Assembly (NCBI GenBank): GCA_027014155.1
Contig: JALWEG010000003.1
Coordinates: 2,479 to 56,954 of the forward strand
Reading direction: 5' to 3'
DNA: 54,476 nt
Source: Aquificaceae bacterium
Lineage (GTDB): Bacteria; Aquificota; Aquificia; Aquificales; Aquificaceae
How positions within the stretch are numbered: the first letter of the stretch is position 1; each line of letters begins with the position of its first letter. Below the pieces are notes generated by a model. It saw only the letters and a program-made list of their open reading frames with translations. It had not been told where the DNA came from and did not search any database. Shown here piece after piece: positions 6,193-54,476 of this stretch. Both the position numbers and the translations under genes were made by a program.

Positions 6193-6458
6193 TGTTTGTG
6201 ATACTGGTCTATGATGTCAAAGAAGAGAGAGTCGGCAAGGCTCTTAAAATATGTAGAAGGTATCTGACCCACGTTCAGAACTCGGTATTTGAGGGAGAGA
6301 TAAGCGAGGCTAAACTCAGGATACTGAAAGACGAGCTAAGGTCAATCCTTGATGAAAACTACGATTCTGTAATCATCTACAAATTCCGAACCAAGCACTA
6401 TTACCAGCGCGAAAGCATAGGTGTAGATAAACCCTCTCATGAGGACTTCATAGTTTAG
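6192..6458 (+). CDS. cas2: Cas2 (adaptation complex dimer)
   Basis: 88 residues. The N-terminal ferredoxin-like strand MFVILVYDVKEERVGKALK with the conserved Asp (D8), and the RRYLTHVQNSVFEGEI segment, are typical of Cas2. The protein bridges two Cas1 dimers during spacer integration. The ATG at 6192 overlaps the cas1 stop (TGATG). A longer frame opens at 6126 inside cas1 but would add sequence absent from the family. It is the last cas gene before the leader. Confidence 0.95.
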   Translation: MFVILVYDVKEERVGKALKICRRYLTHVQNSVFEGEISEAKLRILKDELRSILDENYDSVIIYKFRTKHYYQRESIGVDKPSHEDFIV

Positions 6459-25466: not shown

Positions 25467-26312
25467 TTACTCAAGCTTGTGCCATCTATAAGCAGGCAGC
25501 TTCTTAACACGCTTGGACAGGAAAGGGTTATCTATGTATATAGTTCTTCTACCCTTTATAAGGCGCAAAGCACTCTTTATGTAAGGAATGGAATAGAACC
25601 ACCTTTTGAAACTTCCGTTCCTGTATGCGTTCTCAAAACCCCTGTTAAGTATCCGAGCCAGCTCTTTATTCTTAGGAGAGACAAAGAAGAACATTGCAAA
25701 GGGATAGACCAGAAGTATCCTCTTTTCGACGGTTATGTCTTTGCATTTATTCTTCCTCGCTAAGACCTCTCTCTGCGCCTCGGTTATCCCACGGGAGAAG
25801 TAATCTACCCTTCTCTTCTCGATTAAAAGAAATATATTCTCGTATTTGGCTTGTATCTGCTTGAGTCCCGCGTGTTCAAGTATCGCGTTGTCGCTCCAAC
25901 CTATGCCCTGCGCACCGATAAGTTTGCGCAAGTCCCTAAGGGTTTTTACCTCGTCAAACTTCTTTTGTGACTCCTTGTGAATTATAAACACCCTGTACCC
26001 AAGAAGCCCTCTGTATATGGGATAGTATATGGGAATTAACTCCCTCTCAAACCTCTCCGAGGTTCCCATCCAGTAAAGGTCTATCTTCCCGCTCTTTAGC
26101 TCTTTTTCTATCCTCGCCTGGGTGTACAGCTGTTTTGTTTCCTCTATAATGTAGTCTTTAACACCTGCCTTTTTGAGTATAAAGTTCAGGAGTTGCAATT
26201 GATACATGTTCCTGTCCGGTTCCTCTGAAGTCCTCGGGACTACTATTCTGAGGGTTTCTGATAATGCCGCAAGGCTAAAGGCTAAAAAGGCTACTAAGCT
26301 GATTAAAATCAT
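25467..26312 (-). CDS. Periplasmic type-2 solute-binding protein (SBP_bac_3-like)
   Basis: 281 residues. A signal peptide occupies about residues 1-18 (ISLVAFLAFSLAALS). The rest (LRIVVPRTSEEPDRNMYQLQ, KSGKIDLYWMGTSERFE, and a YPFAMFFFVSPKN segment) has the layout of a family 3 extracellular binding protein. No ABC permease or ATPase genes are nearby. Its partner is the GGDEF protein downstream, so it looks like a sensor component and not a transporter part. The ATG at 26312 abuts an inverted repeat and has no Shine-Dalgarno site. Confidence 0.8.
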   Translation of the reverse strand: MILISLVAFLAFSLAALSETLRIVVPRTSEEPDRNMYQLQLLNFILKKAGVKDYIIEETKQLYTQARIEKELKSGKIDLYWMGTSERFERELIPIYYPIYRGLLGYRVFIIHKESQKKFDEVKTLRDLRKLIGAQGIGWSDNAILEHAGLKQIQAKYENIFLLIEKRRVDYFSRGITEAQREVLARKNKCKDITVEKRILLVYPFAMFFFVSPKNKELARILNRGFENAYRNGSFKRWFYSIPYIKSALRLIKGRRTIYIDNPFLSKRVKKLPAYRWHKLE

Positions 26313-26334
26313 ACTATACCATTACGGTATAGTA
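26312..26334 (-). promoter_or_regulatory. Inverted repeat over the start of the binding-protein gene
   Basis: TACTATACC-attac-GGTATAGTA is a perfect 9-bp dyad with a 5-base loop. It covers the start codon and part of the -10 element. It could be a repressor operator. As RNA, only part would be transcribed. Confidence 0.65.
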
Positions 26335-26359
26335 TAGTCGCGTACGTTTAAAATGTAAA
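26331..26359 (-). promoter_or_regulatory. Promoter of the binding protein-GGDEF operon
   Basis: On the minus strand, TTTACA (26354-26359) is 17 nt from TATACT (26331-26336). The start site would lie about 10-14 nt before the ATG, leaving almost no leader. A second dyad, AAATGTAA-ac-TTACATTT (26351-26368), overlaps the -35. Confidence 0.65.
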
Positions 26360-26378
26360 CTTACATTTATCTCAAAAA

Positions 26379-26689
26379 ACACTCCAAGACTCCTTCCGTA
26401 AGGGAGGAGATACGGAGTGTCGCCCGCAAGGGCGTTAAAATAGAAGTTGACCGGAAAACATTTGTGGAGTAAAGTAGTAAATAATTAAATACCCCACTGC
26501 TCCCGAGAGGGAGAACAAAAGCTCTAAGGTGGGGTAGAAGAAGAACGAAGAAACAGAAAGTAGCTCCACTACCTATCTTCGGGTAGGTAGGCAGGAGTAG
26601 AGGCGGAGTGAACCCGCCTGTTGTGGTAAGGGACACTACGAGTGTCCAAACCCACACGAAGCTCCGTCCGTGAGGGCGGAGAGGTTCAC
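26379..26689 (+). ncRNA. Candidate structured non-coding RNA ending in an IS200/IS605-type right end
   Basis: No gene lies in this stretch, yet hairpins follow one another. ACACTCC (26379) pairs with GGAGTGT (26414) around CTCCTTCC-GTAA-GGGAGGAG. Then come CGCCC-GCAA-GGGCG (26421), ACCCCAC/GTGGGGT (26491/26529) around CTCCC-GAGA-GGGAG, CTACCTATC-TTCG-GGTAGGTAG (26569), AGGCGG/CCGCCT (26601/26614), TGTGG/CCACA around GGACACT-ACG-AGTGTCC (26631), and CTCCGTCC-GTGA-GGGCGGAG (26662). Four GNRA loops and one UUCG loop exist only when read on plus, so the RNA is plus-sense. The 3' end AGCTCCG...CGGAGAGGTTCAC matches the right end at 53992-54023 (minus). It resembles an omega-RNA-like element without its protein gene. 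The function is not known. Confidence 0.6.
26658..26689 (+). mobile_element. IS200/IS605-type right-end hairpin (solo)
   Basis: GAAGCTCCG, an imperfect stem loop, then CGGAGAGGTTCAC. The 9 outer and 13 inner bases are identical to the right end of the tnpB element at 53992-54023 (minus strand). No transposase or tnpB frame is attached. Confidence 0.7.
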
Positions 26690-26729
26690 TTAGGAAATTT
26701 GGCAGACGTTCCTTACGGCAAGCTAAGGC

Positions 26730-53623: not shown

Positions 53624-53995
53624 ATGAGAACTGTAAAGGTTGCCATAGCAGGGTTGGGAAAAGTAGGAAGCGTATTTTTAGATGCTCTGCTATCTTCTGA
53701 ATCTGACAGCATAAAGGTTGTGGCTGTTGCCGAACCCAGAGAGGAGCTTGAGTCCGTAAAAAAAGCAAAAGAAATGGGAGCTGGATATTTCAGGGACGCA
53801 CGCAACATGCTTGAAGCTTTAGGTGATGAGATAGATATCCTTTTTGATCTTACAGGAAACGCAATTGTAAGAACCGAGCTTCACGAAATCCTTAGCGGTC
53901 AAGGAAATAGACACACCATAATAGCCCCTGAGAGGATAGCCTACCTGATATGGGCTCTGATAACAGAGGGTAATAAACGTTATCCCCGGCCGTGA
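53624..53995 (+). CDS. NAD(P)-binding Rossmann-fold domain protein, 3' end altered by a tnpB element
   Basis: 123 residues. The N-terminal VKVAIAGLGKVGSVFLDALL has GxGxxG at 10-15. The rest (VVAVAEPREEL, DILFDLTGNAIVRTELHEIL, AERIAYLIWALITE-like end) is like the domain found N-terminal to some sensor kinases or standing alone. The stop TGA (53993-53995) lies within the GTGAACC of the right end of the IS element, so the last residues GNKRYPRP come from the junction. Most of the domain is kept. It may still fold. Confidence 0.6.
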   Translation: MRTVKVAIAGLGKVGSVFLDALLSSESDSIKVVAVAEPREELESVKKAKEMGAGYFRDARNMLEALGDEIDILFDLTGNAIVRTELHEILSGQGNRHTIIAPERIAYLIWALITEGNKRYPRP

Positions 53996-54476
53996 ACCTC
54001 TCCGCCTTCTGCGGCGGAGCTTCCAGTAGAGACTACTCCCACCCGGAAGACCCACATGGGATTCCTGCTTCAACGAGAGATGGCTAACACCCTCCTCTGA
54101 GAGTATCCCGCCAGAGCTCTCTCCACAGGCGTTAGTTCGGGTCGCTCCGACCCTACCACCCGTCAGGCGGGTGAGACCTTTCCTTAGTATGTTTACGCTC
54201 GCATTGTAATCCCTGTCCATCACCGTCCCACATTCGGGACACCTGTGCAACCTCTCGGCTAAGACCTTGGGAACTCTAAACCCACACACAGAGCAATCTT
54301 GCGTCGTGTAGGACGGGTCAACCTTTGCCACCTTCGCTCCTGCCATTACAGCCTTGTAGGTAGCAAAGGTGATGAGTGTCCCCCATCCTGCATCAAGTAT
54401 TAGCTTGGCTAAGTTGCTGTTCTGAACGAGTCCTTTTACGTTCAGCTTCTCAAAGCTTATGTAGTCGTAATTGTTT
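53819..54476 (-). CDS. tnpB: TnpB (IS200/IS605-type RNA-guided nuclease), 3' part only, cut by window edge
   Basis: The frame is open from 54475 downward. Residues read FEKLNVKGLVQNSNLAKLIL, KVDPSYTTQDCSVCGFRVPK, HRCPECGTVMDRDYNASVNI: part of the RuvC nuclease with its final Asp (DRDYNAS) and the CxxC...CxxC zinc finger. At the Glu position, EK replaces the common ED. The normal family end (ACGE...SLKQE) is reached near 54062, but no stop follows. The frame continues through the right end into the neighbouring gene to 53819. An internal ATG at 54346 is not the true start. Confidence 0.85.
   Translation of the reverse strand, partial: NNYDYISFEKLNVKGLVQNSNLAKLILDAGWGTLITFATYKAVMAGAKVAKVDPSYTTQDCSVCGFRVPKVLAERLHRCPECGTVMDRDYNASVNILRKGLTRLTGGRVGATRTNACGESSGGILSEEGVSHLSLKQESHVGLPGGSSLYWKLRRRRRRGSRPGITFITLCYQSPYQVGYPLRGYYGVSISLTAKDFVKLGSYNCVSCKIKKDIYLIT
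53992..54476 (-). mobile_element. IS200/IS605-family tnpB element, right end inside window
   Basis: On minus, the element ends with GAAGCTCCGCC-gcagaa-GGCGGAG and AGGTTCAC (53992-54023), the typical right-end hairpin. The tnpB 3' coding region and omega-RNA scaffold lie before it. The rest of the element and its left end are beyond the window. The same end occurs at 26658-26689. Confidence 0.8.

Follow-up and report, generated by a model that had tools for sequence, protein, structure and literature searches.

TnpB is a transposon nuclease and the ancestor of CRISPR-Cas12. Its guide RNAs are regarded as arising from the tnpB mRNA as by-products, so that every nuclease is bound to the transposon that encodes it. 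For IscB, stand-alone omegaRNAs (HEARO) were reportedly described by Altae-Tran et al. in 2021. In ISDra2 and other IS200/IS605 elements, the omegaRNA (reRNA) takes its guide from the flanking DNA, and the TAM is identical to the insertion target (PMC8612924, PMC10097598). The omegaRNA of ISDra2 is laid out as stem 1, a pseudoknot of the stem 1 loop with the 3' terminus, and stems 2–4 (PMC10097598). A PATE-like element of Halanaerobium consists of 271 nt and keeps 58 nt of tnpB together with the whole right end (PMC7290912), and a rearranged RuvC site with an alternative glutamate has been described in TnpBs and Fanzors (PMC10711439).

The window analyzed here is the whole stretch of 54,476 nucleotides from the genome of an Aquificaceae bacterium. 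A sequence-only reading of its positions 26379–26689 had proposed a strongly structured plus-strand RNA without a protein gene, possibly an omegaRNA kept without its nuclease. Folding of these 311 nt yielded a minimum free energy of −125 kcal/mol compared to −87.4 ± 5.3 kcal/mol for shuffled sequences (z = −7.09), with none of 100 dinucleotide shuffles being as stable, and all of the described helices and tetraloops were recovered, including four GNRA loops and one UUCG loop. Because G-U combinations (185 cells) far outnumber A-C combinations (17 cells) across 49 aligned cores, the plus strand is indeed the folding strand. Scanning for open reading frames of at least 60 aa revealed no convincing protein gene across the region, the sole frame over the element coding for 96 aa on the opposite strand. 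The previous failure to match tmRNA, RNase P or SRP RNA was borne out, with no covariance match to any of them or to 6S RNA or HEARO in the element. No Rfam family reached its gathering score, and scans of the window and 16 relatives at E 10 and E 1 returned nothing real. The best weak match of the element was to the archaeal HgcC RNA (RF00062), which resembles positions 26599–26702, the 3' half of the omegaRNA, at 16.9 bits (E 0.12; gathering score 50); this resemblance is possibly due to chance, or possibly HgcC is itself an uncharted omegaRNA.

A multicopy mobile element and its ends

Instead of a single odd RNA, as assumed before, copies were found across the same genome, and positions 26366–26689, a slightly larger unit than initially delimited, constitute a 324-bp mobile, multicopy element of the IS200/IS605 type. 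The search of its own genome returned 44 matches, among them at least six full-length copies of 92–100% identity and many fragments which end at contig ends in a repeat-like manner. The copies vary by indels between 316 and 326 bp, and their alignment set the ends of the element at TTTAT on the left and GGTTCAC (26683–26689) on the right. TTTAT was present at the left junction in nearly all full copies and the right junction was identical in all copies, with unrelated flanks and without a target duplication. The left part of the element contains the following features:

26366–26370, plus strand: TTTAT target site at the left junction and predicted TAM for the cognate TnpB, from copies and empty sites
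26371–26434, plus strand: left end, predicted single-stranded DNA substrate of TnpA, with the same architecture on related elements
26379–26385/26414–26420, plus strand: outer stem of the left end, 7 bp, enclosing an 8-bp hairpin
26390–26409, plus strand: inner hairpin of the left end, 8 bp, GUAA loop
26421–26434, plus strand: second hairpin of the left end, GCAA loop

The fold of the left end recurs with unrelated sequence in stand-alone elements of other genera, in tnpB elements and in elements containing both tnpA and tnpB. Because it is common to elements bearing these genes, we assign it as a transposition end outside of the guide RNA, and its helices, which had been counted as part of one RNA, are therefore to be separated from the latter. 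Six sites with joined flanks were searched in relatives, and two or three of them corresponded to uninterrupted, unoccupied sites in G001, the sister genome, the best being that of L011 with 86% across the junction and L014 also reading through; the others were too diverged for a call. A search for seven sites of genome G009 within its genus showed no clear read-through. The target, the hairpins of the ends and the short guide-like motifs at the hairpin feet, whose pairing was judged by eye, are as expected for IS200/IS605 elements with a Y1 transposase. As in non-autonomous members of this group (PATE/MITE), there is no transposase gene, the ends are like those of autonomous elements, and insertion occurs 3' of a short, fixed target without duplication.

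Next to the insertion, a palindrome at 26310–26359 (TATACTATACC-GTAAT-GGTATAGTATG) is located just before the minus-strand gene at 25467–26312 and overlaps the −10 box of a promoter-like site of this gene. The element is inserted 7 bp beyond the −35 box of the same site, which stays intact.

The omegaRNA core and the region preceding it

The remaining part of the element and its right flank contain the following features:

26447–26475, plus strand: sigma70-like promoter sequence TTGACC-17-TAAAGT, from a consensus scan
26490–26536, plus strand: central hairpin domain, covariance model R2
26558–26689, plus strand: TnpB-type omegaRNA core of 132 nt, covariance model R1
26563–26598, plus strand: 5' hairpin of the core (helices 1 and 2) with UUCG loop, two-sided changes at 9 of 9 pairs of helix 2
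26601–26619, plus strand: stem 1 with GUGAACC in its loop (26608–26614), from covariation and the ISDra2 layout
26622–26656, plus strand: stem 2 with nested stem 3 (26631–26647), two-sided changes at 11 of 11 pairs of helices 4 and 5
26662–26689, plus strand: right end with stem 4 or RE hairpin (26662–26681, GUGA loop), pseudoknot strand and cleavage site TTCAC
26690–26705, plus strand: predicted 16-nt guide TTAGGAAATTTGGCAG in flanking host DNA, different for each copy, by analogy to ISDra2

Eight cores of other genera, of which five came from tnpB elements, were used to build model R1, and the window was left out. The model matched the window core with 122.5 bits (E about 2e-35) and detected cores in 31 of 136 Aquificota genomes, covering those of tnpB-bearing and of stand-alone elements alike, which indicates that the core is homologous to the right end of genuine tnpB elements. 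Compensatory changes, which the earlier reading had named as support for its RNA, were abundant. In the 49 aligned cores, 97.1% of the cells were paired vs. 41–50% in slid controls, two-sided changes occurred at 30 of 39 pairs vs. 16.6 in shuffles, and the covariation score was 0.453 vs. 0.187 in shuffles; the core alignment was fitted to the tested structure, and relatedness inflates the comparison with the shuffles but is addressed by the slid controls. The 23 stand-alone cores taken alone were paired in 98.5% of the cells and showed two-sided changes at 21 of 39 pairs. The loop of stem 1 is complementary to the terminal GGUUCAC (26683–26689), giving a predicted pseudoknot which is nearly invariant and hence beyond the reach of covariation testing.

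The core thus contains the omegaRNA scaffold of stem 1, pseudoknot and stems 2–4, and at the DNA level it ends at junction 26689 in every copy, followed by differing flanks, as known for omegaRNA 3' ends. By analogy, positions 26690–26705 would be in the place of the guide. The suggested retention of an omegaRNA without its nuclease therefore holds for the 3' part. Ordinary omegaRNAs are encoded at the 3' end of tnpB in the same element; because there is no tnpB within the 324 bp, this RNA would need to act in trans and represents a stand-alone variant.

The −10 box reads TAAAGT in the window copy and TAAATT in most copies, and the transcription start of the stand-alone RNA is predicted at about 26481–26484. 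Stand-alone elements of five genera keep the promoter hexamers at a spacing of 16–17 with a variable spacer sequence, their −10 boxes being imperfect (3–5 of 6 matches). The central domain consists of a 9-bp outer stem (26490–26498/26528–26536), an inner hairpin with a GAGA loop and a conserved, asymmetric 3' internal loop of 14 nt. Model R2 matched only five genomes of five genera (the window's own, G009, G021, G027 and G029), exclusively in the position directly upstream of the cores of tnpB-less elements and never in tnpB elements. In G045 and G047 (another family), a hairpin of the same plan with a different inner sequence is present. The growth of the RNA suggested before corresponds to the promoter-like sequence and one extra hairpin domain in place of tnpB. 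We dropped the assumption that the promoter is exclusive to tnpB-less elements, because tnpA/tnpB elements of G009 have a promoter-like sequence upstream of tnpA; specific to tnpB-less elements is a promoter-like sequence positioned directly before hairpin and core.

A complete related stand-alone omegaRNA element (TTTATAG...AGTTCAC) was observed at 6370–6692 of L300, on a contig of 167 kb which IMG/VR classes as viral; the hairpin domain of this element is preceded by TGGACA-16-TATAAT. A DNA similarity search of phage and plasmid records yielded none with the element. A homologous core is located at 489.9 kb of a 1,551,335-bp genome which we took as A. aeolicus, and the printed Table 3 of an A. 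aeolicus RNA-seq study (PMC4227106) lists nothing near it.

Cognate TnpB and the proposed action in trans

The window's own genome contains a 1485-bp element (L027) which combines a left end of the window type with tnpB (477-codon frame) and the core. The cognate TnpB is an intact protein on contig C65, which is matched by NCBIfam guided_TnpB with 152 bits, above the cut-off. The RuvC-II glutamate is moved to E-x-YTSGVD in the clade comprising the TnpB of L027/L057 (P0001) and its orthologues. All ten aligned TnpBs of this clade, including that of C65, conserve DPN (RuvC-I), the alternative glutamate and NAD and are devoid of the canonical RuvC-II glutamate and the zinc-finger cysteines.

The C65 protein replaces the product of the tnpB gene at 54 kb, which had been proposed as partner in trans. 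The 3' hairpin had also been taken for the right end of the 54-kb TnpB family; this applies to the terminal ~32 nt, which are common to both, but the rest of the core differs. The 54-kb gene was rejected as a partner because only these last 32 nt match and its omegaRNA corresponds to a different tnpB-less family. It is found at 53992–54476 of the window on the minus strand (L046), has the same terminal hairpin and runs into the window end. The second tnpB-less family of the genome comprises elements of ~386 bp with the target TTTAA, whose 3' 184 nt share 89–96% identity with right ends from the clade of the 54-kb tnpB, indicating that the same design is present twice in this genome. Its members are L031, L032, L034, L035, L036 and L041 (contigs C1, C17, C27, C66 and C8), and their promoter-like sequence reads TTGCA(C/T)-17-TAAAAT.

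The closed genome G009 contains seven tnpB-less copies, five cognate tnpB genes and a single tnpA gene, which lies immediately next to one of these five. The left end of the tnpA- and tnpB-containing copy is nearly identical to those of the seven tnpB-less copies, and its right end matches. In the window's own draft genome, a tnpA with exactly these ends was not found, its two tnpA genes being part of TTTAG-target elements. A short distance beyond one TTTAG-target tnpA/tnpB element (L048, contig C61), downstream of its tnpB, CRISPR-like repeats (CAACTCCACACGGCGCATTAGGAAC) begin. Of the stand-alone cores whose genome also contains a tnpB core, 16 of 17 had their nearest tnpB core in that genome, as expected if the RNAs must fit the local protein, although this may partly reflect host phylogeny. 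A cognate tnpB was not detected in the drafts G021 (seven cores) and G027 (one core), which possibly reflects loss or an assembly gap. G021 is a 99%-complete draft, and five of its seven omegaRNA cores (L093–L098, L125) have the central hairpin.

Because the element has no protein gene but a seemingly complete guide RNA and an apparent promoter, its enzymes are probably supplied by full-size relatives within the same genome. We consider it likely that it represents a non-autonomous, guide-RNA-only IS200/IS605 transposon, in which a small RNA gene replaces tnpB and which uses TnpA and TnpB in trans. This builds on the observed mobility, ends and target, conserved omegaRNA core, promoter-like sequence, extra hairpin and intact cognate TnpB elsewhere in the genome, and adds that, as judged from sequence, the stand-alone element would be expressed and would guide TnpB in trans. 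The promoter would then yield an RNA of about 205 nt plus 16–20 nt of guide from flanking host DNA, which would be bound in trans by TnpB from a full element. The RNA-loaded TnpB would recognize TTTAT plus guide and cut the re-joined donor site once TnpA has excised the element, and repair from the sister copy would restore it. The element would parasitize TnpA for its movement and TnpB for its retention. The central hairpin probably either stabilizes the stand-alone RNA at its 5' end or aids its competition for TnpB, which is the least certain step.

An alternative which we regard as unlikely is a plain MITE or PATE, i.e. a passive deletion derivative of a tnpB element moved by TnpA, whose internal RNA is an unused relic and whose hairpins act as single-stranded DNA only. 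The ends and the mobility are as expected for a PATE, the element of Halanaerobium has likewise retained its right end along with the 3' end of tnpB (PMC7290912), and some copy-bearing genomes have no detected cognate TnpB. However, the internal helices are dispensable for transposition and still covary among the stand-alone copies, and promoter and central domain are conserved across five genera, whereas a relic should decay. The conserved RNA structure and the same genomes without detected TnpB would also agree with a host-domesticated regulatory RNA, or with a guide RNA which directs TnpB, in a repressor-like manner, to genes away from the donor site. We deem this highly improbable in view of the mobile copies with differing flanks and guides, their absence from the orthologous site in the sister genome and the complete DED-type site kept by TnpB. 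An IStron, which combines an intron with an IS605 element and an omegaRNA, or another self-splicing ribozyme element with the left-end and central helices as its core might be suspected from the many helices with GNRA loops, but is scarcely credible given that no group I or group II intron of Rfam matched the element up to E 10 and that the left-end fold is common to ordinary tnpA/tnpB elements.

Beyond the favored guide-RNA-only transposon, we tentatively propose, with more doubt than confidence, that these elements, each with a promoter of its own and an additional RNA domain, form a distinct class which has spread within the Aquificota and onto at least one contig of viral classification, contributes guides to a common pool of TnpB and perhaps competes with or regulates autonomous elements via the extra domain. 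In at least five genera, the guide RNA would here be a separate mobile gene, putatively driven by a promoter. If the action in trans is true, a single TnpB can protect numerous copies without tnpB, whose natural guides all differ; this is akin to the division of labor between one Cas12 effector and its many guides and would make an early step from TnpB to CRISPR directly testable. The host organisms are thermophiles, and because of this origin and the rearranged active site without zinc-finger cysteines, the pair of TnpB and RNA may be biochemically useful.

Comparison with known systems

Like the omegaRNAs of ISDra2 and other IS200/IS605 elements, the RNA core ends at the right end of the transposon, shows the same layout of stems and pseudoknot and would be followed by a guide from the flank, the predicted TAM corresponding to the target (PMC8612924, PMC10097598). 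Unlike these, it belongs to a separate element without tnpB instead of deriving from a tnpB mRNA, and it has its own promoter-like sequence and an extra 5' hairpin domain. Stand-alone IscB omegaRNAs are similar in that their loci contain a guide RNA alone and would rely on a nuclease supplied in trans, but IscB is a nuclease of the IscB/Cas9 type and uses an unrelated RNA. The cognate TnpB shares DP at RuvC-I and the alternative glutamate with the rearranged TnpBs and Fanzors, but is devoid of zinc-finger cysteines and occurs in an IS200/IS605 rather than an IS607 setting (PMC10711439).

In the literature covered, which includes few subscription journals, we came across no account of TnpB guide-RNA elements with a promoter. 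As in the PATEs and MITEs of the IS200/IS605 group, the protein gene is absent, the ends are intact and mobilization would occur in trans; the differences are an internal RNA whose conservation across genera is seen from covariation, a promoter-like sequence, and a domain which is absent from tnpB elements. Non-coding IS200/IS605 derivatives without tnpB were already known, and the new features are the apparent promoter, the extra domain and the conservation across genera.
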